DNA of 40,171 nt from Hyphomicrobiales bacterium (GTDB lineage: Bacteria > Pseudomonadota > Alphaproteobacteria > Rhizobiales > Beijerinckiaceae): NCBI GenBank assembly GCA_025358745.1, contig JANYIH010000022.1:1-40171 (forward strand), given 5' to 3'. Made by a program: the position numbers and the translations under genes. The number at the start of each line of letters is the position of its first letter. Position 1 is the first letter of the stretch. Positions 1-15,010 of the stretch are shown here, piece after piece. The notes under the pieces were generated by a model. It did not search any database, had not been told where the DNA came from, and saw only the letters and a program-made list of their open reading frames with translations.

Positions 1-1891
1 ACCCCTGCCCGAGCTTGGTGATCATGCCGGCGCTGTTGCGCGCGGCAATGACGGCCAGGCCCGTGACGTCGATCCCGTAGCCGGGGTGGGCCGCGCGGAC
101 GGGCGCCAGCCCGCGGTCGAGCGCGTTGACCACGGGCAGCAATTCGCTGGCGTCCTTGTCGGGAATGCGCCCGGCCACGAGTTCGGACTGGCCGTCGGCT
201 GCGAGGAAGCGGCGGGTGAGGAATTTCGGCAGGATGTCGACATAGGATTTCATGCTGGCGACGTCGGTCTCGCCGAGTTTCTCTTTCAGCCAGTTGCGCA
301 GCGTTTGCATCGACCAGACATTGCCGAGCCCGGCTTGCGCCTCGACCACCCCGTGCACCTGCGCCAGCACGTCGAGCGTCTCCGGGGAATAGACGCCCTG
401 GCCCTTGGGGAACGTTATCATCACGTCGACCGGATTGGCGCCGGCGAGCTTGGCGTCGATCCGGTTGATCGCGTCAATGGCGTGCTCGCGGTCGGGCGCC
501 TGATCGGCCAGCCGGTAGCGCGGTTCGAGATCGAAATAGGCCAGGCTCAGCAAGATCAGAACGGCCAGCGCGCCCAGGCTCGCCAGCCCCGGCCGTCGCG
601 TCATGCGGTCGGCGATCCAGTCGCAGAAGCCGCGCAGCGCGTTGACGCCGGTGTCGACGCTGGACAGGCTCGCCACCCGCGCCCCCGTCGGCGCCATCAG
701 CATGCCCAGAGCCGGCAGCACCGCCAGCACCGTCACGAGCGCAATTCCCATGCCGATCACGCCGGCCAGGCCAAAGGCGCGGATCATGTCGGAATCGGAA
801 AGGCGCAGCGCCATGAACGACAGCGCGCCGGTCGCGTGGGTCAGCACGCAGGCCGGACCGACGGTGTAAATCGCCGAGCCGAACGCGCTCGCGCGATCGT
901 CGCCTTGGATCAGCCGGTCGCGCGCGGCGAAGGTGAGTTGCATCGAGTCGGAAAAGCTGATCACCATGATGAGCGGCGTCATCACGTTCAGGAACATGTT
1001 GAGCTTAAGACCGAGCCATCCGATTGCGCCCAGCGCCAGCGCGATCGACAGCAGCGGCGGCGCGGTGGCGATGACGAGAAACGACAGCCGCCGGAAAAAC
1101 AGGATCGCCACCAGACAGCCGATCGCGAAGCCGACCGCGTTATAGGCGATGCGGTCGCGTTCGACCGCCTGCCGGATCTGCAATTGCATGATCGGCACGC
1201 CGGAAAGCTGCGCGTCGAGCCCCACGCCTTGCAGATCCTCCTCCATCGTCTTGCGAATCTCGCCGACCACCGAGGCGAGCTTGCCGGCCTGGGTCGCCGC
1301 CGGATCGAGCGACATCACGACCAGCGTCAGCGTGCCGTCTTCCGACAGCAGCTTGCCGCGGATGAGGTCGTTATCCCTAAGGTTCTGCACCAGCGCGTCA
1401 TAGGCCGGCCCTTCGGGCAGATCCTCGGGAAACACCGGTTTCGGCAGTCCGCCCTGGGCGGCCGGCTGGCGCGCGGAGAACAGCGAGACCAGGCCGGAAT
1501 CGCCGTCGACCAGCTGCAAATCCGTCACCAGCCGACGCAACGCCTCGATCTGCGCCCGGCCGAGCAGGTTCTTGCCTTCGACAACGACCAACACGTCAAA
1601 TTCGTTCGACGGGAAAGTCTTGGATTCTTTCTCGAATTGTCTGAATTCCGGCGTCTCGGCGCGGAACAGTTCGCTTAAGGAATCATCGACCTTGAGGCGG
1701 CCGATCCCCATTACGGCGACGACCACCAGCAGCGCCAGCGCGATCAGCGTCGGCACGGGCGCGCGCAATCCGATAAGCCCCAGGCGCTCTACGCCGAAGG
1801 CGATATTGAGCCGCTCGCTCGTCCGCTCCCCTTCGCGCGCACGCCGCTTTTCGTCGCCGCCCGTATCGGTTCGCGCCTCGAACAGCCCCAT
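1..1891 (-). CDS. MMPL/RND-family transporter, partial (C-terminal end lies outside the window)
   Basis: Own reading of the minus strand from ATG at 1891 (MGLFEARTDTGGDEKRRAREGERTSERLNIAFGVERLGL...), open to the window edge. Hydrophobic segments and the GxxxDS/MQLTFAARDR region are typical of MMPL/RND permeases. The supplied track lists only antisense ORFs here because this frame has no stop in the window. Confidence 0.85.
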   Translation of the reverse strand, partial: MGLFEARTDTGGDEKRRAREGERTSERLNIAFGVERLGLIGLRAPVPTLIALALLVVVAVMGIGRLKVDDSLSELFRAETPEFRQFEKESKTFPSNEFDVLVVVEGKNLLGRAQIEALRRLVTDLQLVDGDSGLVSLFSARQPAAQGGLPKPVFPEDLPEGPAYDALVQNLRDNDLIRGKLLSEDGTLTLVVMSLDPAATQAGKLASVVGEIRKTMEEDLQGVGLDAQLSGVPIMQLQIRQAVERDRIAYNAVGFAIGCLVAILFFRRLSFLVIATAPPLLSIALALGAIGWLGLKLNMFLNVMTPLIMVISFSDSMQLTFAARDRLIQGDDRASAFGSAIYTVGPACVLTHATGALSFMALRLSDSDMIRAFGLAGVIGMGIALVTVLAVLPALGMLMAPTGARVASLSSVDTGVNALRGFCDWIADRMTRRPGLASLGALAVLILLSLAYFDLEPRYRLADQAPDREHAIDAINRIDAKLAGANPVDVMITFPKGQGVYSPETLDVLAQVHGVVEAQAGLGNVWSMQTLRNWLKEKLGETDVASMKSYVDILPKFLTRRFLAADGQSELVAGRIPDKDASELLPVVNALDRGLAPVRAAHPGYGIDVTGLAVIAARNSAGMITKLGQG

Positions 1892-2254
1892 TCCCTCACG
1901 CCTCGCGCCGCTTCGCCCAGTCGAACACGTCCACGCCGGGACTCTTGCCGCGAACTATGTTAGCACGCGTTACAGGCATGCCGGTGGTTACGGCAAAATC
2001 GCGCGCGAAGGAAGGGGCGTCCGGTCGGACGCGCTCGCATGTTCGCAACCTATCTCAAGAAATGCAGCGCACATTTGTGTGATAATGGAAGGCGTTATCC
2101 ATGTGCGAGTGTTGCCGCCCGCGCCATTACTGCCTATAAGGCCGCCGTAATGAAGGACCGCCGGAATAGGCGGGAGGGGGGTCCTTGCCATGTCTGACTG
2201 TGAATGCGCAGGCTCCAAGCGGGCGCGGCGGTCGTTAATTTGTCGAGGCTCGTA

Positions 2255-3415
2255 ATGCGCATTCCGTTTCACAAGGAATTGAAAATCGGCGGCTATATTC
2301 TCAAGCAGAAGATGCTGGGAAATAAGCACTATCCGCTGGTTTTGATGCTGGAGCCGCTGTTTCGCTGCAACCTCGCCTGCGCCGGCTGCGGCAAGATCGA
2401 TTATCCCGCGCCGATCCTGAACCAGCGCCTCAGCGTGAAGGAGTGCCTCGACGCGGTCGACGAATGCGGCGCGCCCGTCGTTGCCATTCCCGGCGGCGAA
2501 CCGTTGATCCACAAGGAGATCGGCGAGATCGTCGAGGGCATCGTCGCGCGCAAGAAATTCGTCTCGCTTTGCACCAACGCGCTGCTGCTCGAGAAGAAGC
2601 TGCATCTTCTGAAGCCCTCGCCCTATCTCACAATCACCGTCCATCTCGACGGCATGAAGGAGCAGCACGACCGCGCCGTCAGCCAGGACGGCGTGTTCGA
2701 GATCGCGGTGCAGGCGATTAAGGCGGCCAAGGCCGCCGGCCACAACGTCAACGTCAATGCGACCATCTTCGACAACCAGACGCCGGAGGAGATCGCCGGC
2801 TTCCTCGACCTCGCCCGCGATCTCAAGGTGGGCGTGTCGATCTCGCCCGGCTACGCCTACGAGCGCGCGCCCGACCAGCAGCACTTCCTCCAGCGCCGCA
2901 ACACCAAGGAGCTGTTCCGCAGCGTGTTCGCGCTCGGCAAGGGCCGCAAGTGGACGATCGAGCACTCGCCGCTCTATCTCGACTTCCTCGCCGGCAATCA
3001 GGAATATCTGTGCACCCCCTGGGGCATGCCGACCCGCAACGTGTTCGGCTGGCAGAAGCCCTGCTATCTCGTCGGCGAAGGGTTCGTCTCCTCCTACAAG
3101 GAACTGATCGAGACGACCGACTGGGACAGCTACGGCACCGGCCGCTACGAGAAATGCGCCAACTGCATGGCCCATTGCGGCTACGAGCCGACCGCGGCCG
3201 ACCACGCCGTGCGCAATCCCCTCAAGGCGGTGATGGTCGCCATCCGTGGCCCGCGCACTTCGGGCCCCATGGCGCCGGAGATCTCGATGGCCAAGCAGCG
3301 GCCGGCCGACTACGTCCATGCGCGCCACGTCGACACCATGCTGGCCAAGCTGGAGGCGGAGACCCGAGCCGCGCCGCCGGCCCGTTCGCGTCGCTCGGCG
3401 CCGGCGGCGGAGTGA
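2255..3415 (+). CDS. hpnH: Radical SAM adenosyl-hopene transferase HpnH
   Basis: MRIPFHKELKIGGYILKQKMLGNKHYPLVLMLEPLFRCNLACAGCGKIDYP; radical-SAM CxxxCxxC (CNLACAGC). Start set at 2255 rather than the ORF start 2204. Confidence 0.93.
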   Translation: MRIPFHKELKIGGYILKQKMLGNKHYPLVLMLEPLFRCNLACAGCGKIDYPAPILNQRLSVKECLDAVDECGAPVVAIPGGEPLIHKEIGEIVEGIVARKKFVSLCTNALLLEKKLHLLKPSPYLTITVHLDGMKEQHDRAVSQDGVFEIAVQAIKAAKAAGHNVNVNATIFDNQTPEEIAGFLDLARDLKVGVSISPGYAYERAPDQQHFLQRRNTKELFRSVFALGKGRKWTIEHSPLYLDFLAGNQEYLCTPWGMPTRNVFGWQKPCYLVGEGFVSSYKELIETTDWDSYGTGRYEKCANCMAHCGYEPTAADHAVRNPLKAVMVAIRGPRTSGPMAPEISMAKQRPADYVHARHVDTMLAKLEAETRAAPPARSRRSAPAAE

Positions 3416-3473
3416 GGCCGCCCGGCCGACGCTCGCCGCCGACTTCACCTGACCTAGGAGCTAACGCTCAACC

Positions 3474-6065
3474 ATGCTGACGAAATTCATCAGCAGGATC
3501 GTCGATCTCTGTCTGCGTTTTCCACGTAGCGTCGTCATCGCCGGCCTCCTGCTCGCTCTCGCCGGGAGCGTCTATGCCGCGACCCATTTCGCAATCACGT
3601 CGGACATCGACTCGCTGCTCTCGAAGGATCTGCCATGGCGCCAGCGTGGCATCGTGTTCGAGAACGCCTTCCGCCGATTTGAGATCGTCAACGTCGTCAT
3701 CGACGCGCCGACGCCCGAGCTGACCTCGGCGGCGACCGAAGCGCTGACCAGCGCGCTCAAGCAGGACACGACGCATTTCAAATCGGCCACCAATTCGAGC
3801 GCGGCCGGATTCTTCAGCCGCAACGGCCTGCTGTTCCTGCCCCAAGACCAGCTCAAGCAGAGCCTCGACGGGCTCGTGCAGGGCGAGGCCCTGATCTCCG
3901 ATCTCGGCCAGGACCCGAGCCTGCGCGGCCTCGTCTCGGCGGCCGAGGATACGCTGATCGGCGTCAACCAGCACAAGCTCGAACTCGACGCCACGGCGAC
4001 GCTGTTGGGCAAGGTGGCGCAGACGATTGAGGACATTCTCGCCGGCAAGCCCGCCAGCTTCTCGTGGCGCGCGCAGATGTCGGGCCATGCGCCGTCCTCG
4101 CTCGAACTGCGCGGCTTCATCGAGGTGCGCCCGGTGCTCGATTTCAAGTCGGTCGAGCCCGGCCACGAGGCGACGCAGGCCCTGCGCGCCATCGCCGCGC
4201 AGGTCGCGCCCGCCTACCAGGCGCGGGTGCGCCTGACCGGCCCGGTCGCCATGGCCGACGAGGAATTCGCCACCATCAAGGAAAACGCCGTCCTCAACGG
4301 CTCGATCACCTTCGCCATCGTGCTGCTGATCCTGTGGATGGCGCTGCGCTCGTTCAAACTGATGTTCGCGGTGTTCGTCAATCTGCTGGTGGGGCTGCCG
4401 ATCACCGCCGCGGTCGGCCTGTTGCTGGTCGGCACGTTCAACCTGATCTCGGTCTATTTCGCGGTGCTGTTCGTGGGCATCGGCATCGACTTTTCGATCC
4501 AGTACAGCGTGCGCTATCGCGCCGAGCGGCACGACAACCCCAACCTGCGCGAGGCGATCCGCGCCGCCGGTCACTATGTCGCCGCCCCGCTGACGTTGGC
4601 GGGCGTGGCGACCGCGCTCGGCTTCTTCTCGTTCCTGCCGACCCACTACAAAGGCGTCTCGGAACTCGGGATCATCGCCGGCTGCGGCATGCTGATCGCT
4701 TACGCCACCAGCGTTACCGTGCTGCCCGCGCTGATCTCGCTGCTCAACCCCAAAGGCGAGCCGGAGCCGCTCGGCTACACCGCGCTGGCGCCGCTCGACG
4801 CGTTTCTCGACCGCAACCGCTTCGCCGTCCTCTATGGCGTGATCGGAACGGTCGTCATCCTGCTGCCCGCGCTGTTCTGGCTGCGTTTCGACTTCAATCC
4901 GATCAACCTGCGCAATCCGCACACGGAATCGATCGCGACCTATCTCGACCTGAAGAAAGACCCGGCGACCAATCTCAACGCGCTCGAAGCGCTGGCCCCC
5001 GATCTCGACGCCGCCAACGCCATCGCCGCCAAAGTGTCGAAGCTGCCGGAGGTGTCGCGCGCCACGACCCTGTCGTTCTTCATTCCGCCCGATCAGGACA
5101 AGCGCCTGCCCGAGATCGCGCAGGCCGGCAAGGCGCTGGCCGGCGCGTTCGATCCCGCCAACGCGCTCGCCCCTCCGACCGACAAGGAGAACGTCGAAGC
5201 GCTGACCGATCTCGCCTCGCGGCTGGAGGATTCGGCCAAGGAGAACCCCGGCGCCGGCGCGCCGGCGGCCAAGTCGCTCGCCGCCGCGCTCGGCGGCCTC
5301 GCCAGGGCCGACGTCAAATTTCGCGAACGGGCCGACGAGGTGTTCGTCGCTCCGCTGAAACGCGATCTCGCCGCGCTGAAAGCGACGCTCGCGGGCGAGC
5401 AGGTCACGCGCGACAATCTGCCCAAGGACCTCGTCGCGGACTGGATCACGCCCGACCGCCGCGCCCGCGTGTCGATCGCGCCGAGCGCCGATCCCAACGA
5501 CAACGACGCCATGCGCAAGTTCGCCAAGTCCGTTCTCGCCGTCGAGCCCGACGTGACGCAAGGGCCGGTGACGATCCTGGAGGCGAGCGACACGGTGCTG
5601 AACGCCTTCATCGAAGCGGGCGTGCTGGCGCTGGCGTCGATCGCCCTGCTGCTGTGGCTGGTGCTCGGCCGGCTGTCGGACATGCTGATGACGCTGATCC
5701 CGCTCAGCATGGCCGGCCTGGTGACGATGGAAATTTGCGCGCTGATCGGCTGGCCGCTCAATTTCGCCAACATAATCGCGTTCCCCTTGCTGCTTGGCGT
5801 GGGGGTCGCGTTCAAGATCTACTACATCATGGCCTGGCGCGACGGCGTGACCCATCTGTTGCAGACGAGCCTGACGCGGGCGGTGATCTACAGCGCGATG
5901 ACGACGGCGGTGGCGTTCGGCAGCCTGATGTTCTCCTCCCATCCGGGGACGGCGAGCATGGGGCGGCTGTTGGCCCTGTCGCTGGTGACGACTTTGTGCG
6001 CGGCGGTGTTGTTTCAGCCCATCCTGATGGGCAAGCCGCGTCAGGCGGCGCCCGGTTCGCACTAG
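3474..6065 (+). CDS. hpnN: Hopanoid transporter HpnN (RND/MMPL family)
   Basis: 863 aa, RND topology (two large periplasmic loops, two TM bundles), N-terminus MLTKFISRIVDLCLRFPRSVV...ITSDIDSLLSKDLPWRQR, directly downstream of hpnH. Confidence 0.88.
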   Translation: MLTKFISRIVDLCLRFPRSVVIAGLLLALAGSVYAATHFAITSDIDSLLSKDLPWRQRGIVFENAFRRFEIVNVVIDAPTPELTSAATEALTSALKQDTTHFKSATNSSAAGFFSRNGLLFLPQDQLKQSLDGLVQGEALISDLGQDPSLRGLVSAAEDTLIGVNQHKLELDATATLLGKVAQTIEDILAGKPASFSWRAQMSGHAPSSLELRGFIEVRPVLDFKSVEPGHEATQALRAIAAQVAPAYQARVRLTGPVAMADEEFATIKENAVLNGSITFAIVLLILWMALRSFKLMFAVFVNLLVGLPITAAVGLLLVGTFNLISVYFAVLFVGIGIDFSIQYSVRYRAERHDNPNLREAIRAAGHYVAAPLTLAGVATALGFFSFLPTHYKGVSELGIIAGCGMLIAYATSVTVLPALISLLNPKGEPEPLGYTALAPLDAFLDRNRFAVLYGVIGTVVILLPALFWLRFDFNPINLRNPHTESIATYLDLKKDPATNLNALEALAPDLDAANAIAAKVSKLPEVSRATTLSFFIPPDQDKRLPEIAQAGKALAGAFDPANALAPPTDKENVEALTDLASRLEDSAKENPGAGAPAAKSLAAALGGLARADVKFRERADEVFVAPLKRDLAALKATLAGEQVTRDNLPKDLVADWITPDRRARVSIAPSADPNDNDAMRKFAKSVLAVEPDVTQGPVTILEASDTVLNAFIEAGVLALASIALLLWLVLGRLSDMLMTLIPLSMAGLVTMEICALIGWPLNFANIIAFPLLLGVGVAFKIYYIMAWRDGVTHLLQTSLTRAVIYSAMTTAVAFGSLMFSSHPGTASMGRLLALSLVTTLCAAVLFQPILMGKPRQAAPGSH

Positions 6066-6717: not shown

Positions 6718-7359
6718 ATGAAATGGATATCAGCCCTTGCCTTGGCCATGCTCTTTGCGATGGCGACATTCGCCCGCGCCGAGGCGCCCACCGCCGCCGG
6801 CTTCTGGGAAGCCAAGGACGACGACGGCTTCACCAACGCCTGGTTCATGTTCACCGAGAAGGACGGCGTCTTTTCGGCGCGGCTCGTCAAAGGGTTCAAA
6901 AAGCCCGGCGACACCAAGAAGATCGAGACGATCTGCCACAAATGCCCCGGCGATAAAAAGGGCGCCCACATCATGGGGCTCACTCTGTTCTACGGCATGA
7001 AGCAGGACGGCCTCAAATATCGCGGCGGCAGCGTGATCGACCCGCGCGACGGCTCCGTCTATCACGCCCAGATGGACCTCAGCGAGGACGGGCAGGAGCT
7101 ATCCGTGCGCGGCTATCTCGGCATTCCCATGCTGGGCAAGACGCAGGTCTGGCATAAGCTGCCCGACGACGCGATGAAGAAAGAAGACATTCCGAAAGAG
7201 ATTTACGCCGACGGCTCGTCCCCGGTTGAAGACGCCGCCGCGGAGAAGCCCAAAGGCTCGCACAGCGTCGACAAGCCGAAGGCGCACAAGAAGCCCAAGG
7301 CCGAGAAGGCGAAAGCGGAGCCGACCGAGCCCGACGCGGCTCCCGCGCCGGCCCAGTAA
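6718..7359 (+). CDS. DUF2147 family secreted protein with Lys/Pro/Ala-rich C-terminal tail
   Basis: MKWISALALAMLFAMATFARAEAPTAAGFWEAKDDDGFTNAWFMFTEKDGVFSARLVKG...; tail EKPKGSHSVDKPKAHKKPKAEKAKAEPTEPDAAPAPAQ. Internal start of ORF 6403..7359. Confidence 0.78.
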   Translation: MKWISALALAMLFAMATFARAEAPTAAGFWEAKDDDGFTNAWFMFTEKDGVFSARLVKGFKKPGDTKKIETICHKCPGDKKGAHIMGLTLFYGMKQDGLKYRGGSVIDPRDGSVYHAQMDLSEDGQELSVRGYLGIPMLGKTQVWHKLPDDAMKKEDIPKEIYADGSSPVEDAAAEKPKGSHSVDKPKAHKKPKAEKAKAEPTEPDAAPAPAQ

Positions 7360-7736: not shown

Positions 7737-8297
7737 TCAACCGCCAATGGTTTCCCGCGCCGGCAGCCGACAGAAGCCCTGCGCGGGCACGTCGAGCGCG
7801 GCGTTGAACTTCGACGACAGGTTCTGGAACGCGATCAGCCCCGTCAGTTCGACGATTTCGTCCGCGCTCCAGCGCGCCCGCACCCGCTCGCGCAGCGCCT
7901 CGTCCACTCCGTTCAGCGTCATCGCCTCGGCCCATGCCAGCGCCAGTCTCTCGTCGTCGGAGAACAGCGCGCTCCCACGCCAGTCCGCCAGCGCCTCGAT
8001 TCTGTCCTGACCCACGCCGCGCTTTTGCAATGTCGCCGAATTGATGTCGACGCAAAAGGCGCAATGGTTGATCTGCGACACTCGCACCGTGACTAGCGCG
8101 CGCAACGCGGGCGCGATGGGCGAGCCGCTCCGGTTCAGCGCGCCATAGAGCAGCGCGACGCTGGCGAACACCCATTGCGAACGTCCCCACAACAGGCCGG
8201 GGTCGAGCACGCGTCCGTAGGTCCGCCTCTGCTTCCAGAAGAACAGCCGGATGAACAGGGGATAGTCGGCGAGCTTCTTGGCGCTGACGAGGCTCAT
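7737..8297 (-). CDS. ynjA: Carboxymuconolactone decarboxylase/AhpD-like protein (YnjA-like)
   Basis: CMD-family core VRVSQINHCAFCVDINSATLQKRG with CxxC; last gene of the minus-strand operon, overlapping the ATPase gene by 4 nt (8294-8297). Confidence 0.8.
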   Translation of the reverse strand: MSLVSAKKLADYPLFIRLFFWKQRRTYGRVLDPGLLWGRSQWVFASVALLYGALNRSGSPIAPALRALVTVRVSQINHCAFCVDINSATLQKRGVGQDRIEALADWRGSALFSDDERLALAWAEAMTLNGVDEALRERVRARWSADEIVELTGLIAFQNLSSKFNAALDVPAQGFCRLPARETIGG

Positions 8298-8938
8298 GGC
8301 GGGGTCCCGAGCTGGAGAATTTCACCCCCCGCCGCGTCCGCGTCGGCGGGATCGTGGGTGACGAGCACAACGGGGAGCGCGCGGCGCCGCGCGTGATCGA
8401 ACACGAAACTTCGCATGTCGCGCCGCAGCGGCGCATCGAGCTTGCCGAACGGCTCGTCCAGCAACAGCGCCTTGGGCGCGGCGACGAGGCTGCGCATCAG
8501 CGCGACGCGAGCCCGCTGCCCGCCCGAAAGCGTCGCGGGATCGCGACGCGCGAAGCCTTCGAGCCCCGCCTCGCGCAGCGCCTGCGCGACCGCTTCCCCG
8601 CGCGCTGCCCGGCTGCGAACGCCAGCGTCGAGCCCGAACGCGACATTGTCGCCGACGCTGAGATGGGGAAACAGCAGATCGTCCTGAAACATCAAGCCGA
8701 TCCCGCGTCGCTCCGGGGCCAGACCCGTCACGTCGCGTGCCCCCAGCCAGACCCGCCCGCGTGCGGCGAACACGCGTTCCAGATGGCCACCGACGAAGGC
8801 CAGCAGCGCCGACTTGCCCGACCCGCTTGGCCCCAGGATCGACAACGCCGCCCCGTCCGCGACACGGAAGCTCAACTCCCGCACGAGCGTTCGGCCGCCG
8901 ACCGCGAAGGTGACCGCCTCGACGGTGAGCCCGCTCAT
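8294..8938 (-). CDS. ynjD: ABC transporter ATP-binding protein (YnjD-like)
   Basis: Walker A GPSGSGKS, signature LSGGQRARVALMRSL, Walker B ALLLDEPFGKLD, H-loop VTHD. Start 8938 within ORF 8294..10393. Confidence 0.88.
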   Translation of the reverse strand: MSGLTVEAVTFAVGGRTLVRELSFRVADGAALSILGPSGSGKSALLAFVGGHLERVFAARGRVWLGARDVTGLAPERRGIGLMFQDDLLFPHLSVGDNVAFGLDAGVRSRAARGEAVAQALREAGLEGFARRDPATLSGGQRARVALMRSLVAAPKALLLDEPFGKLDAPLRRDMRSFVFDHARRRALPVVLVTHDPADADAAGGEILQLGTPP

Positions 8939-10566
8939 CGTCGCGCCGCCGCCAGCGCGGCGAGCCACACCGCGAGCGGCGCCGCCGTCTGGCTCAACCC
9001 CACCAGCGCCGACATCCGCCGGTCGCCCCCGCCCGCCAGCGCCAGCGCTTCCGTCGTCAGCGTGGCGACGCGCCCGCCGCCGGCGAACAGGGTGGCCAGA
9101 TATTGCGCCGCCGAGACCGCAAAACCGATCGCGAAGGCCAGCGTCAGCGGCGCGCGCAACAACGGCAGCTTGACCCGCCACAACGCCGCGTTCGGTCCAA
9201 CCCCGAGCGCCGCCGCCGCCCGGGCGTATCGAGAATCGAGCGCGCGATAGGGGTCGGCGAGCGCCAGCAGCACATAGGGAAACACGAACAGCAGATGCGC
9301 CCAGGCGACGGCGGCAAGCGTCCCGTCGAGCCGCGTCCAGGCCAGCACGGTCTGCATTCCGAACAGAAACGCGATCTGCGGCGCCAGCAGCGGCAGGCAG
9401 ACCGCCCCCACACGGGCGCGCTGGCCCCCACGCTGCTCGCTCTCCAGCCAGGCCACGGCGAGCGACAGCGAGGCGAGCGACGTCGCGGCGCCCAGCGCCG
9501 CAGTCGTCGCGAGCGGCCCCGCCAGTCGCCCGCTCTCCCGTATGGCGAGCGCCAGCGTCCAGGATTGCGGCAGCGCGAGGGGAAACGGCCAGCGCCAGGC
9601 GAAAGCCCACACGATCATGCCCGCCAGCGACGCGAACCCCAAGGCAAGCGTCGCCACGCCCGCCCACGCCCCGGCCGCCAAAGCCGCATCGAGCCAAAAA
9701 CCGCGCGCCCCGCGCCGCGCCAAAGCGCGGCCGAGCGCGCCGACGCCGTGTTCCGCGCCAAACCACGCCACAGCGGCGGCCAGCGTCAGCCCGAGTTGCA
9801 GCGCCGCCGCCGCCTCGCCGACAAAGAGGTCGTCGAGATCGGGCGACAGCAGCCAATGCAGCGCCAGCACCGCCAGCGGCGCGGGATGTGAAGGCGCCAG
9901 CGGCAGCGCCATGTCGACATTGCCCAGGCCATAGGCCAGCACCGCGAACACCGGCAGCCGGATGCGCCGGTAAAGCTGCGGCGCGACGATGAAAGCGAAG
10001 GCGCGGCCCGGCCCGTGGCCGAGCGCGCGGGCGGCGCGAAGCTCGGCTTGCGCGGGAAATTGCGCCCGCGCCGCCGCGCCGACAGCGAGCAGAAACGGCG
10101 TCTCCTTGACGATGAGGCCGAGCGTCAGCGCCAAGCCATTGGCGTCGCCGACCAGCGCAAGATCCGGCGGCGCGTTCCAGCCCGTCGCCCAGGGGCTCGC
10201 CAGCCGCGCCAGCCAGCCGCTCGGCGCGAGCAGAAACGCCAGACCGACGGCGATCGCCGAATGCGGGCTCGCCAGCAGCGCCGCCAGCGCCCATCCGCCG
10301 GGCGCCCGGCGCGCCAGTAAGGCCAGCGCCAGCGCCAGCGAAATCGCCGTCGAGGCGAGACCGACGCCGAGCGTCAGCCGCACGCTCGCCCAAAGGCCGG
10401 GCTCCGCCAGCAGCCGCCGCCAGGGATCGAGGCTGAACGCCGCGCTCCCTAGCGCCGGCAGATAGCCGAACGCGGCCGCCAGCGTCACCCCCAATCCGGC
10501 CAGCGTCGGCGCGACGATCAGCGCCAACGCCAGCGCCTGCGCCGGATTGACGCCCTTATTGCCCAT
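8935..10566 (-). CDS. ynjC: ABC transporter permease with duplicated permease domain (YnjC-like)
   Basis: 543 aa polytopic protein with two EAA-loop-like segments (ELRAARALGHGPGRAFAFIVAPQL and RYARAAAALGVGPNAALWRVKLPLL); 4-nt overlap with the ATPase gene. Confidence 0.85.
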   Translation of the reverse strand: MGNKGVNPAQALALALIVAPTLAGLGVTLAAAFGYLPALGSAAFSLDPWRRLLAEPGLWASVRLTLGVGLASTAISLALALALLARRAPGGWALAALLASPHSAIAVGLAFLLAPSGWLARLASPWATGWNAPPDLALVGDANGLALTLGLIVKETPFLLAVGAAARAQFPAQAELRAARALGHGPGRAFAFIVAPQLYRRIRLPVFAVLAYGLGNVDMALPLAPSHPAPLAVLALHWLLSPDLDDLFVGEAAAALQLGLTLAAAVAWFGAEHGVGALGRALARRGARGFWLDAALAAGAWAGVATLALGFASLAGMIVWAFAWRWPFPLALPQSWTLALAIRESGRLAGPLATTAALGAATSLASLSLAVAWLESEQRGGQRARVGAVCLPLLAPQIAFLFGMQTVLAWTRLDGTLAAVAWAHLLFVFPYVLLALADPYRALDSRYARAAAALGVGPNAALWRVKLPLLRAPLTLAFAIGFAVSAAQYLATLFAGGGRVATLTTEALALAGGGDRRMSALVGLSQTAAPLAVWLAALAAARR

Positions 10567-11734
10567 ACCGCCGACGCCATTCTCCCGCGATCTTCGTCAT
10601 CCACGAGGGGTGCGGCTCCAGCAGCACCGGCCCCAGATCGGTCGGCGCGGCGGGCTCGGCGGGCGCGGCGAACGCCTTGCGCTGCTCCGGGCTCAGCTTG
10701 TCGGGATCGAGCACGTTATAGGCGCCGAGATAGGCGATGTCCTGCGCATGCGCCTGTGTGGCGGGATCGAGCAGGAAATTCGCCAGCGCCATCGCCGCCG
10801 CCTTGTGCGGCGAGTTATAGGGGATTGCGACGAAACTGGTGTTGCCGAGCGAGCCGTCGGCGAAATTGGTCGCTCTCACGGTCGCGGGCAGACGTCCCGC
10901 CCTTGCCGCGACCGCCGCCTCCAGCGGGTCGAAGGCCAATGCGAAATCGACCTCGCCGTCGTTGAGCGCCTGGATCAGCGCCGGCTCGTTCAAGGGATAT
11001 TGCCGCCCCTGGCGCCAGAGCGCATCCCGCACCGCGTCGCACCACGCCCACAGGGGCGCGCTCTGCGTCGCGAAGGCGGCGTCGTCGGCGGGTTGGCTCA
11101 GCCGCGCGGCGTCGGGCGCGAGGTCAACCAGGATCTGTTTGAGGAAGCTCGCGCCCATGAAGTCGTGCGGATCGGGATAGGTGAACCGGCCGGGATGCGC
11201 CTTGATCCATTCGGTCAGGGCGATGAGCGAACGCGGCGGCGCGGCGACTTTGGCCGAATCGTAGATGAGAACGAATTGAGCCAGCCGCCACGGCGATTCG
11301 TAGCCCTCCGTCGGCACCGCGAAGTCCACCACGTTCGAGCGTTTATGCGTCGCGTCGATGAACCTCGCGTTGGGTAGATCCTGCACGAACGGGCCATAGA
11401 GCAGCCCCTTCTGCTTCATCGACAGAAAGTTCGGCCCGTTGATCCAGATCAGATCGACCGAACCGTCGGCGTCGCGCCCGGCCCCTTTTTCCGCCAGTAC
11501 CCGCGCGACCGCTTCGCCGGTGTCGGTCAGCTTCACCTGTTTGACGGTGACGCCGTAGCGCGACTGCATCTCGCCGCCCGCCCAGGCGATGAAAGCATTG
11601 GTGCGCTCGTCGCCGCCCCAGGCGTTCCAATAGACCGTCTCGCCTTTCGCTTTGGCGAGCGTCGCGTCCCAGTCCGCCCGCGCCGGGCCGAGGGTCGCCA
11701 GGACCAGGGCCGCGGCAAGAATCCGTTTCATCAT
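10556..11734 (-). CDS. ynjB: ABC transporter periplasmic binding protein (YnjB-like)
   Basis: Signal peptide MMKRILAAALVLATLGPARA; WDATLAKAKGETVYWNAWGGDERTNAFIAWAGGEMQSRYGVTVKQVKLTDTGEAVARVLAEK is recognisably YnjB. Confidence 0.9.
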   Translation of the reverse strand: MMKRILAAALVLATLGPARADWDATLAKAKGETVYWNAWGGDERTNAFIAWAGGEMQSRYGVTVKQVKLTDTGEAVARVLAEKGAGRDADGSVDLIWINGPNFLSMKQKGLLYGPFVQDLPNARFIDATHKRSNVVDFAVPTEGYESPWRLAQFVLIYDSAKVAAPPRSLIALTEWIKAHPGRFTYPDPHDFMGASFLKQILVDLAPDAARLSQPADDAAFATQSAPLWAWCDAVRDALWRQGRQYPLNEPALIQALNDGEVDFALAFDPLEAAVAARAGRLPATVRATNFADGSLGNTSFVAIPYNSPHKAAAMALANFLLDPATQAHAQDIAYLGAYNVLDPDKLSPEQRKAFAAPAEPAAPTDLGPVLLEPHPSWMTKIAGEWRRRYGQ

Positions 11735-12354
11735 TTTCCTTCACTACCTGCGAACGCGAGCCAGCCCCAACGCCAGCGCATCAAAGTGGTGAGCGCGCAC
11801 AGCGCCGCGAATGTCCAGGCCAGCGCGGGAAAGGCGGCGGACCACAGGCACATCGCGACGAAGGCGGCGAGCGTCTCGGCCCCCTCGGTCAGGCCGCCGA
11901 GATAATAGAGTCCCTTGGCCGGGAACGCCGGCGCTTTCAACCCCCGCTCGGCGGCCAGCGCGGCGAAGGCGAGAAAGCTCGAACCCGTGCCGATGAAAGC
12001 CGCCAGCAGCGCGGCGGCGGGCAGCGCGTTGCGTGGGGGATCGGCGAGCGCAAAGCCGAGCGGCACGAGCGCGTAAAAGACGAAATCCAGCGCGATGTCG
12101 AGAAAGGCGCCGCGTGCGGTGGCCCCGAGCCGTCGCGCCAGCGCCCCGTCGAGCCCGTCGCCAAGCCGGTTCGCCAGGATCAGCGCCAGCGCGGTCTTAT
12201 AAGCGCAAATCGCCAGCGCGCCGGCCGCCGCCGCGCCGAGCGCGAAGCCCGCCAGCGTCACGGCGTCGGCGCTCACCCCCGCCGCCGCGAGCCGCGCGGC
12301 GGGCGGGTCGAAGGCGCGACGCAGCCAGGGTTGCAGGCGCGCGTCGAACATCAT
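11731..12354 (-). CDS. ynjF: CDP-alcohol phosphatidyltransferase family protein (YnjF-like)
   Basis: CDP-AP motif NRLGDGLDGALARRLGATARGAFLDIALD (DxxDGxxAR...GxxxDxxxD); 4-nt overlaps with both neighbours. Confidence 0.87.
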   Translation of the reverse strand: MMFDARLQPWLRRAFDPPAARLAAAGVSADAVTLAGFALGAAAAGALAICAYKTALALILANRLGDGLDGALARRLGATARGAFLDIALDFVFYALVPLGFALADPPRNALPAAALLAAFIGTGSSFLAFAALAAERGLKAPAFPAKGLYYLGGLTEGAETLAAFVAMCLWSAAFPALAWTFAALCALTTLMRWRWGWLAFAGSEGK

Positions 12355-14492
12355 CCGCCCCGCGAATAAGCAAACAGCCGCCGCGCCAGTCGCAGCGCGC
12401 ACGGCGAGGCGTGTTCGCGCCGCCAGTTCAGCGCGACCGCCGCCCCCGCCTCGCTCCAGCCGGGGTAGGGATGGATCGCCGCCATCACCTTCTTCAGCCC
12501 CAGACCATGCCGCATCGCCAGCGTGAATTCCCCCAGCATCTCGCCCGCATGCGCGCCGACGATGGTCACGCCGAGAATCCTGTCGCGGCCGGGCGCCGTC
12601 AGCGCCTTGACGAAACCGCGCGTTTCGCCCTCGACGATGGCGCGGTCGAGTTCGCTGAGATCGTAGCGCGTGACTTCACAGGCGATCCCCCGCTCGCGCG
12701 CCTCCTGTTCGCTCAGGCCGACGCGGGCGACCTCCGGCGCCGTGTAGATGACGGCGGGGAACGCCTTGAGTTCAGCGCGAAATGGACGCAATGGCGCCAG
12801 CAGCGCATTAATCGCCGCCCGCGCGCCATATTGCCCCGCCGCATGGGTGAATTGCAGATCGCCCAGCACGTCGCCGGCGGCGTGGATCGTCGACAGCCGC
12901 GTCCGCAGCCGCGCATCGACGATCAATCGCCCGTTCTCCAGCAAGCCCAGCGCCTCCAGCCCAAAGCCCGCCACGCGCGGCCGCCGCCCGACCGCGACCA
13001 GCACGCGGTCGAACGCGATCTCGCGCCCGTCCGCCCGCCGCGCCAGCCCCGGCGCGAAGCTCGCCAGCGCGGCGCCTTCGATCACCTCGACACCATCCTC
13101 GCGCAGCGCTTGCGCGATCGCCGCCGAGGTCTCCCCGTCTTCGCGCGCCAGCACGCGCGGCGCGGCCTCCACCAGCGTCACGCGCGAGCCGAGCCGCTGG
13201 AACGCCTGCGCCAGTTCGCAGCCGATCGCCCCGCCGCCGACCACCAGCAGCCGCGCCGGGCGCTCGGTCAGCGACCACACCGTCTCCGAGGTCAGCGGCT
13301 CGGCCTGGATAAGGCCGGGAATCGGCGGCAGCGCCGGTTCCGCGCCGGTCGCGATCAGCAGCGCCCGCGCGCTCAGCCGGCGTCCCGCGACCTCGACCGT
13401 CCACGGATCGACGATTCTCGCCTCGCCGGCGACCACTTCGACGCCGAGGCCGCGATAGCGCGCTGCCGAATCATGCGGCGCGATTTGCGCGATGGTCGCG
13501 CGCACCCGCGCCATCACCGCCGGGAAATCCACTTCGATCCGCCCGCGCAGGCCAAATTTTTCGGGCGCCTCCGCCGCCAGCCGCGCTGCGCGGATCAGCG
13601 CCTTCGAGGGCACGCAGCCGGTGTTGAGGCAATCGCCGCCCATCGCGCCGCGCTCTATCAGAGCCACGCGCGCCCGCGACGCCGTCGCGACCGCGGCCGC
13701 GACCAGACCGGCCGAGCCGGCGCCGACGACGATGAGGTTGTAGTCGAACCGCGTCGGCCTGCGCCAGGCCGCCAGTCGCGCCCGCCCCTCGCGCCAGCCC
13801 ATCAAGGGCCGCGCCGCCAGCGTGACAAGGCCAAGACCCAGCAGGATCGCGAACGTCGGCAGGTCCACCACATCGCTCGGCCGCTGCACCTTCGCCAGCC
13901 GCGCGCCCGCCAGCACATAGAGCAGCGCGACGGGGGCGGAGCCGAGAAAACTCGTCGCCGCGAATTTCCACGCCGGCATCCGCGTCAGTCCGACGGCGAG
14001 ATTGACGACGAAAAAGGGAATCGCCGGCGTCAGCCGCGCCGCCAGCAGCCATAGCGCGCCGTCGCGCGCTACGCCCGCATCCACTTTGGCGACGAAAGCA
14101 GGAAACCGCGCCGCCACCGCCGCGCGCAGCAGATAGCGCGAGGCGAGCATGGCGAGCGTCGCCCCGCAGGCGCTTGAGGCCAGCACCAGCGGCAAGCCTA
14201 TCCACGGCCCGAACAACGCGCCGCCCGCGACGCTGATCGTCCAGGCGCCCGGCAGCGACAGCGCGGCGAAGGCGAGATAGGCGGCGAAATAGAGCGCGAG
14301 CGCGCCCGGCAGATGCGCGCCGACATCCTCGCGCCGCTCGCTCAGCCACAGGGAAATCCGATGCGCATCGGGCGCTAGCAGGAACGCGCCGGCCAGGATC
14401 GCAAGCGCGAGCGCGGCGAGCGCCCACCCGCGCAGCCGCCATGAAGGCGACGGCCGCCGTCCCAAAGCGGCGCGCGGATTGTTCTGCCTCAT
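12351..14492 (-). CDS. Fusion of TVP38/TMEM64 (DedA-superfamily) membrane domain with class I FAD/NAD(P) disulfide oxidoreductase
   Basis: 713 aa. N-terminal ~235 aa: ALYFAAYLAFAALSLPGAWTISVAGGALFGPWIGLPLVLASSACGATLAMLASRYLL. C-terminal part: FDYNLIVVGAGSAGLVAA, CLNTGCVPSK redox disulfide, GGGAIGCELAQAF NAD-binding, HAAGDV, dimerisation domain ending HPYPGWSEAG. Confidence 0.92.
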   Translation of the reverse strand: MRQNNPRAALGRRPSPSWRLRGWALAALALAILAGAFLLAPDAHRISLWLSERREDVGAHLPGALALYFAAYLAFAALSLPGAWTISVAGGALFGPWIGLPLVLASSACGATLAMLASRYLLRAAVAARFPAFVAKVDAGVARDGALWLLAARLTPAIPFFVVNLAVGLTRMPAWKFAATSFLGSAPVALLYVLAGARLAKVQRPSDVVDLPTFAILLGLGLVTLAARPLMGWREGRARLAAWRRPTRFDYNLIVVGAGSAGLVAAAVATASRARVALIERGAMGGDCLNTGCVPSKALIRAARLAAEAPEKFGLRGRIEVDFPAVMARVRATIAQIAPHDSAARYRGLGVEVVAGEARIVDPWTVEVAGRRLSARALLIATGAEPALPPIPGLIQAEPLTSETVWSLTERPARLLVVGGGAIGCELAQAFQRLGSRVTLVEAAPRVLAREDGETSAAIAQALREDGVEVIEGAALASFAPGLARRADGREIAFDRVLVAVGRRPRVAGFGLEALGLLENGRLIVDARLRTRLSTIHAAGDVLGDLQFTHAAGQYGARAAINALLAPLRPFRAELKAFPAVIYTAPEVARVGLSEQEARERGIACEVTRYDLSELDRAIVEGETRGFVKALTAPGRDRILGVTIVGAHAGEMLGEFTLAMRHGLGLKKVMAAIHPYPGWSEAGAAVALNWRREHASPCALRLARRLFAYSRGG

Positions 14493-14851
14493 GTTCCCGT
14501 CTTATCCGATTGCAGCCTTTTCGCACGCCCCGCGCGTCCCGTTACATCGCAGCGTCGCGCGGCCCGCCTATCGCGCGTCTCAGCTATGCATATAGAGGCT
14601 ATCTCGCGCGACCGAATTCGTTCCACAGTGTAGCCAAAGCGCGAATTTTTCGGATTATGACAAATTCTTGGCTTGTCCAAGGCCAATATCGCCCTCTCGC
14701 CATGCAAATGTCACATATCTTATCGCGTCGCAGCATTGACTTGTGCATCGCACCATGGTAGTTGAACATTCGTCAGGGCGAGGGAACGCTTGAACAGATC
14801 GGCGACGGCCGGCAGCGCGGGGGGCTTGGCGAACACCCTATGGAGCAAACC

Positions 14852-15010
14852 ATGAGCCTCAACTTCTTCCGCCGCTATTTCCACGCCCGCAATGTCTACT
14901 GGAACGTGGTGCGCGAGCTTTCCTGCTACACCGACCGCGAATTGCACGATCTCGGCATCGATCGCGCCGATATCCCCGACATCGCCAAGACCGCCGCCAC
15001 CCAGGCCTGA
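14852..15010 (+). CDS. DUF1127 (YjiS-like) small protein
   Basis: MSLNFFRRYFHARNVYWNVVRELSCYTDRELHDLGIDRADIPDIAKTAATQA; GGAG ~6 nt upstream of ATG at 14852 (an in-frame ATG also at 14840). Confidence 0.82.
   Translation: MSLNFFRRYFHARNVYWNVVRELSCYTDRELHDLGIDRADIPDIAKTAATQA

Follow-up and report, generated by a model that had tools for sequence, protein, structure and literature searches.

The closest described system is the Escherichia coli K-12 cluster b1750-b1758, in which ydjX, ydjY, ydjZ, ynjA, ynjB, ynjC, ynjD and ynjE are followed by ynjF on the opposite strand, convergent with the other genes. ydjX and ydjZ encode TVP38/DedA proteins and ydjY a 4Fe-4S protein, all upstream of ynjA. 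The genes ydjXYZ-ynjABCD are reported to form one FNR-activated operon (PMC3688515), the ynj genes are induced by BaeR (PMC2731931), and a genetic-interaction screen places them together with suf (PMC3930520). A search of one literature library for the gene ynjF turned up no paper on it. Here we describe a related operon in a 40,171-nucleotide stretch of DNA from a Hyphomicrobiales bacterium (contig JANYIH010000022.1), hereafter the window. Its minus strand carries, from 14492 to 7737, six overlapping open reading frames for a TVP38-flavoprotein fusion, YnjF, YnjB, YnjC, YnjD and YnjA (Table 1). The best explanation of the whole, which we hold with slightly less than even confidence, is a putative pathway joining the YnjBCD importer, YnjF and the TVP38-flavoprotein, leading from an imported head-group precursor to a YnjF product.

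Judged by its gene content, the window locus is a rearranged alphaproteobacterial counterpart of E. coli ydjXYZ-ynjABCDEF. A YnjB of family NF008633, with YnjC and YnjD adjoining, is joined in one locus by TVP38, the carboxymuconolactone decarboxylase (CMD) family protein YnjA and YnjF, and BLAST identities to the E. coli proteins are 46% for YnjA, 42% for YnjB, 44% for YnjC, 47% for YnjD and 53% for YnjF. Both systems also have overlapping genes and a redox protein beside TVP38, which in E. coli is YdjY. Unlike in E. coli, the window has one TVP38 domain, joined in the same protein to an NAD(P)H-type flavoprotein (NAD(P)H, reduced nicotinamide adenine dinucleotide (phosphate)), ynjF lies inside the operon directly after the fusion rather than convergent, and ynjA comes last instead of before ynjB. 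Neither the rhodanese YnjE nor the ferredoxin-type YdjY is encoded in the window operon, where the flavoprotein domain is found instead. The original prediction, made from the sequence alone, was right that the operon has no rhodanese, but it overlooked ydjX, ydjZ and ydjY upstream of ynjA. Because the E. coli cluster already has two TVP38/DedA genes, the presence of TVP38 beside ynj genes is not new.

YnjB and YnjF are co-inherited even when their genes are unlinked. We compared two sets of genomes, an even draw of 190 from across the class (class sample) and 199 of the order (order sample). YnjB, scoring above its family cut-off, was present in 30 and YnjF in 41 of the 190 class genomes, with both in 24 against 6.5 expected (p=3e-14, odds ratio 34). 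The corresponding counts for the order were 56 and 62 of 199; the two occurred jointly in 54 genomes where 17.4 would be expected (p=2e-37, odds ratio 456), and 17 of its 21 families have both proteins. Physical linkage does not explain this pattern, since five of the 53 order-sample pairs (window excluded) lie within 10 kb and the others are more than 40 kb apart or on different contigs. As a control in the class sample, ThiB occurred with YnjB in 6 genomes against 2.5 expected (p=0.02) and with YnjF in 6 against 3.5 expected (p=0.1), giving a control odds ratio of 3.8. A second control counted by hand in the same sample, a phosphatidylcholine-synthase-like protein, was found in 11 genomes; YnjB occurs in 2 of these (about 1.7 expected) and YnjF in 4 (about 2.4 expected). 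Both controls thus show a weak association or none. That the importer and YnjF are kept or lost together suggests one shared lipid pathway.

The features of YnjF fit such a role. The protein matches the cytidine diphosphate (CDP)-alcohol phosphatidyltransferase family PF01066 at 26.9 bits (cut-off 22), and its catalytic motif DxxDGxxAR...GxxxDxxxD is intact, with all motif residues (D82, D85, G86, A89, R90, G98, D102 and D106) invariant in 28 sequences. An AlphaFold model with a predicted template-modelling score (pTM) of 0.82 matches the structures of phosphatidylinositol-phosphate (PIP) synthase (6h59) and AF2299. YnjF shares fold and catalytic motif with these two proteins and with PgsA and PssA, yet forms a separate family that stays under every NCBIfam cut-off, and the window genome encodes PgsA-, PssA- and Pcs-like proteins besides YnjF. 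In six families (loci L129, L130, L138, L147, L150 and L154) we observe the gene order psd-pssA-ynjF, so that a single phospholipid operon encodes two distinct CDP-alcohol phosphatidyltransferases, and in L137 psd adjoins ynjF; the identity of Psd and PssA was checked on examples, the PssA of L150 scoring slightly under its model cut-off. ynjF sits in other contexts in the order sample. Of all the evidence, the psd-pssA-ynjF order points most directly to phospholipid synthesis as the setting of YnjF, and together with the modeled fold it supports a lipid role for YnjF with predicted use of CDP-diacylglycerol. In an alignment made by eye, YnjF TEGxET coincides with KWKT of PgsA, which would suit a cationic over a phosphorylated acceptor.

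By family, YnjBCD is a binding-protein-dependent importer. YnjB scores 482 bits against NF008633 (cut-off 203), and its AlphaFold model (pTM 0.85) has the fold of ferric, PotD, thiamine and PhnS-type binding proteins; searching solved structures with a YnjB profile yielded no match. YnjC has weak NCBIfam matches to ThiP, PotC, ModB and PhnU2 and reaches 24 bits against Pfam BPD_transp_1, just short of the 26.4 cut-off. YnjD matches ABC_tran (PF00005) at 2.2e-27, and its top NCBIfam match, PhnT at 5.1e-51, lies under the PhnT cut-off. Apart from this narrow shortfall of YnjC, family searches bear out the gene assignments first proposed for the operon. In binding-protein fold, two-part permease and ATPase, YnjBCD is related to PhnSTUV/ThiBPQ/FbpABC-type importers, but it misses all of their equivalog cut-offs and has its own family (NF008633/COG4134-4136).

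As for the ligand, an FbpA-type iron importer was rejected because the resemblance is one of fold only and none of the positions invariant across 36 YnjB sequences is a tyrosine, which disfavors iron, and a thiamine importer was rejected because the ThiP and ThiQ matches are far under cut-off. One published account states second hand, in its discussion, that of two cationic dyes one was taken up less after deletion of E. coli ynjC; the same account reports that ynjC P213S raised fitness on colistin (PMC9184624). Both statements hint at a cationic ligand. Further clues come from genes at ynjB. A gene resembling aminoglycoside phosphotransferase (APH) and choline kinase lies directly upstream of ynjB in L093 and L104 and divergent from it in L173, and an uncharacterized radical S-adenosylmethionine (SAM)/SPASM gene without an NCBIfam name adjoins ynjB, mostly directly upstream, in six loci from beta- and alphaproteobacteria (L053, L065, L079, L099, L111 and L156). 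Two other sets of neighbors looked like substrate clues but were set aside as coming from one or two families: the aminotransferase, short-chain dehydrogenase/reductase and gamma-glutamyltranspeptidase genes upstream of ynjB (L158, L159, L160, L165 and L168) and, in L161 and others, an Lrp regulator.

In the proposed pathway, the cargo of YnjBCD would be a small organic molecule, perhaps a cationic one or an amino alcohol, or the precursor of such a molecule. With this compound or its product as acceptor, YnjF would carry out the joining to CDP-diacylglycerol, and the outcome would be a minor phospholipid or a phosphodiester. Less securely, the TVP38 domain may move the lipid or a substrate across the membrane, and the NAD(P)H-flavoprotein half, presumably cytosolic, could reduce a disulfide-type or otherwise oxidized partner tied to the pathway or to envelope redox stress, with YnjA as a putative accessory protein. 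In a more specific form, which we offer tentatively and regard as somewhat doubtful, YnjBCD and YnjF would constitute an undescribed head-group salvage system in which a probably cationic alcohol is imported and attached by a dedicated CDP-diacylglycerol transferase, yielding an unrecognized minor phospholipid, in E. coli as well, and coupled in some Alphaproteobacteria to a membrane-tethered redox enzyme. The co-inheritance and the placement of ynjF in phosphatidylethanolamine operons turn two orphan systems of E. coli, ynjBCD and ynjF, into a single testable hypothesis through which an overlooked membrane lipid could come to light, and supply a specific partner enzyme for the enigmatic TVP38 (COG0398) proteins.

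Several points weigh against this pathway. The co-occurrence p-values take phylogeny into account only through the spreading of the sampling over families, and because the importer and YnjF genes are unlinked in most genomes, the two are not obligately co-expressed. Known substrates of the fold neighbors of YnjB span iron, polyamines, phosphonates and thiamine, and the paper cited for the dye-uptake result (PMC6704527) has no mention of ynjC in the main text. Given that inositol-phosphate/archaetidylinositol-type synthases are its nearest solved relatives, YnjF could have a sugar-alcohol phosphate as acceptor or a water-soluble diester as product. Finally, the fusion co-occurs with YnjF (6 of 10 genomes, p=0.008), and no such association is seen with YnjB (3 of 10, p=0.2). 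The earlier idea that the importer feeds the CDP-alcohol transferase is thus strengthened by the strong YnjB/YnjF co-occurrence and the psd-pssA-ynjF loci, and weakened where it draws in the fusion.

The fusion itself combines a VTT domain (PF09335, 3.9e-21) with Pyr_redox_2 (2e-58) and Pyr_redox_dim (4.9e-29). It has the redox CxxxxC, the domains for flavin adenine dinucleotide (FAD) and nicotinamide adenine dinucleotide (NAD) and the dimerization domain of pyridine-nucleotide disulfide oxidoreductases, and the motif CxNxGCxPSK is present in 38 of 38 fusion homologs. The VTT domain is that of DedA/TVP38 scramblases or flippases, making lipid translocation a putative function. An NCBIfam search finds the flavoprotein similar to RclA, hypothiocyanous acid (HOSCN) reductase and mercuric reductase MerA. 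We rejected MerA itself because the score of 369 bits is under the cut-off of 454 and the C-terminal vicinal cysteine pair is missing, that segment having a single cysteine (SPCAL). TVP38 and the flavoprotein also occur as separate genes, adjacent or in the same locus (L088, L155 and L119-L122). In L119-L122, L126 and L194 the separate genes are followed by a conserved sensor histidine kinase-like gene, with yidC/argB alongside in L119-L122 and L126. According to the passages of PMC10127716 available to us, fusion of TVP38 (COG0398 DedA) to a pyridine-nucleotide disulfide oxidoreductase, the same domain pair as in the window, is the commonest fusion of that DedA subfamily; these passages make no mention of such a fusion overlapping with genes for YnjF and YnjBCD in one unit. 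TVP38 near ynj genes and TVP38-flavoprotein fusions were thus both already known, and the window has a variant arrangement.

Neighboring genes in relatives encode extracytoplasmic function (ECF) sigma factors with zinc-finger anti-sigma factors, OsmC, DoxX, DUF2282, thioredoxin-like proteins, CcdA/DsbD, peroxiredoxin-like proteins, CMD and a TIGR03169 flavoprotein; those for the sigma and anti-sigma factors, OsmC, thioredoxin-like proteins, CcdA, peroxiredoxin-like proteins and CMD lie upstream of the fusion or of TVP38. These neighbors and the FNR and BaeR regulation in E. coli suggest a redox or envelope-stress setting for the flavoprotein half. They would also suit a redox and envelope-stress module, a reading we judge rather unlikely, in which the fusion is a membrane-tethered detoxifying reductase (against thiol, reactive chlorine or metal stress), the importer takes up a protectant such as a thiol, and YnjF mends or adjusts membrane lipids under the same stress, with shared regulation instead of one chemical pathway. 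The likeness of the flavoprotein to RclA, HOSCN reductase and MerA and the E. coli links to FNR, BaeR and suf (PMC3688515, PMC2731931 and PMC3930520) agree with such a module. However, the stress neighbors vary by clade and none stands beside the window operon, and the YnjB/YnjF co-occurrence holds without stress neighbors and without the fusion. In the pathway that we prefer, the TVP38-flavoprotein is plausibly a coupled yet optional redox and membrane partner of the importer and YnjF. As a separate observation, the stretch upstream of the operon in L006, the Roseiarcus relative (669-4466 of that locus), carries genes for DUF2282, DoxX, an ECF sigma factor and a thioredoxin-like protein, in what looks like a metal or oxidant stress regulon.

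The five gene junctions overlap by 4 (fusion/ynjF), 4 (ynjF/ynjB), 11 (ynjB/ynjC), 4 (ynjC/ynjD) and 4 (ynjD/ynjA) bases, and the six minus-strand genes and these overlaps agree with those first reported for the operon. ynjF has an alternative in-frame GTG start at 12402; its best start is the ATG at 12354 or 12351, because ATGA overlaps the fusion stop and homologs start at the same MIDA/MFDA motif. The 4-base ATGA overlap between fusion and ynjF recurs in 29 of 37 relatives, and 32 of the 37 show an overlap of some length, a retention that exceeds chance. From the overlapping stop/start arrangement, fusion and ynjF are judged to be translationally coupled.

A scan for YnjB yielded 80 loci, of which the 61 longer than 15 kb were used for gene counts; because the 80 were chosen by similarity to the window, the counts describe its close relatives only. 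YnjC is present in 61 of the 61, YnjF in 55 and the fusion in 32. The prevailing order fusion-ynjF-ynjB-ynjC-ynjD recurs in Rhizobiales and Rhodobacterales. Two other layouts provide the same functions: in L088 separate genes for the flavoprotein, YnjF and TVP38 precede ynjBCD, and in L155 ynjBCD comes after TVP38 and flavoprotein genes, and ynjF is convergent as it is in E. coli. Outside Rhizobiales/Rhodobacterales-type clades ynjBCD is mostly alone, and the fusion, YnjF and YnjBCD are each also found alone. Conservation as a unit, which the original prediction had left to a gene-neighborhood survey, is thus seen in part of the Alphaproteobacteria, and the six-gene set falls apart elsewhere.

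Within the family of the window, L115 has the fusion and ynjF without the importer, and YnjB is absent from all six of the other genomes sampled. The flanks of the operon match neither L005 and L006 nor the other relatives tested, and its guanine-cytosine (GC) fraction is 0.70-0.73 against 0.63-0.67 for most surrounding DNA. Together, these features fit a cassette that is easily moved or lost. They would also be expected, as would the separate occurrence of its parts, if the operon were a compact cassette of independently useful envelope genes in which the importer and YnjF share only a lifestyle preference. We consider such packing without a pathway distinctly improbable, given that the YnjB-YnjF odds ratio is 34 in the class and 456 in the order, compared with 3.8 in the ThiB control, and that 32 of 37 loci retain the fusion/ynjF overlap.

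YnjA matches CMD (PF02627) at 1e-14. It keeps the CxxC of the AhpD alkylhydroperoxidase motif CxxCxxxH, but the histidine is replaced by N in the window (CAFCVDIN) and by T in E. coli (CEFCVDIT), so an AhpD-type peroxidase is unlikely. YnjA accompanies the operon only in L005 and L006, the two nearest loci, and in E. coli. The redox step once assigned to a flavoprotein/AhpD pair is less well supported, given the lost histidine and the rarity of YnjA beside the operon. A selenium link was also rejected: the matches in question (YnjA to a YciW-related seleno/protein model, the TIGR03169 'N-term to SelD' neighbor and a SelL-related peroxiredoxin) are under cut-off or confined to some clades.

In L116 and L117 the fusion is followed by arsenosugar synthesis genes, ArsS (TIGR04167, 446 bits, cut-off 300) and methylthioadenosine (MTA) phosphorylase, which would suit an arsenolipid or organo-metalloid route, with an arsenosugar-like alcohol as the group attached by YnjF and the flavoprotein dealing with the metalloid. 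We regard this route as very improbable, since ArsS occurs in 2 of 190 genomes, both of one genus, is not found in the window genome, and both genomes with ArsS are without YnjB and YnjF; an arsenosugar link was rejected for the window on the ground that ArsS beside the fusion is confined to these two genomes.

Table 1. Features of the operon in the window (positions are those of the window)
Feature	Coordinates	Strand	Basis or remark
Fusion: TVP38/VTT domain (~residues 1-240) + pyridine-nucleotide disulfide reductase, redox motif GGDCLNTGCVPSK	12351..14492	-	first operon gene
ynjF: CDP-alcohol phosphatidyltransferase	11731..12354	-	PF01066 + catalytic motif
ynjB: periplasmic solute-binding protein	10556..11734	-	NF008633
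ynjC: two-part ATP-binding cassette (ABC) permease, ThiP/PhnU-like	8935..10566	-	weak family hits + BLAST to E. coli YnjC
ynjD: ABC transporter ATPase	8294..8938	-	PF00005
ynjA: CMD/AhpD-fold protein, CxxC without AhpD histidine	7737..8297	-	PF02627
Promoter-like match, weak, upstream of operon	14685..14714	-	1 found vs 0.5 expected; no evidence of function

Four genes noted around the operon are on the plus strand. An MMPL-family transporter (PF03176) resembling the hopanoid transporter HpnN is encoded at 3474-6065, and a DUF2147 secreted protein at 6718-7359 is convergent with the operon end. On the other side, a small DUF1127 gene of 52 amino acids (14852-15010) is divergent from the operon, and a tannase/feruloyl esterase gene (PF07519, 15089-16801) adjoins it.

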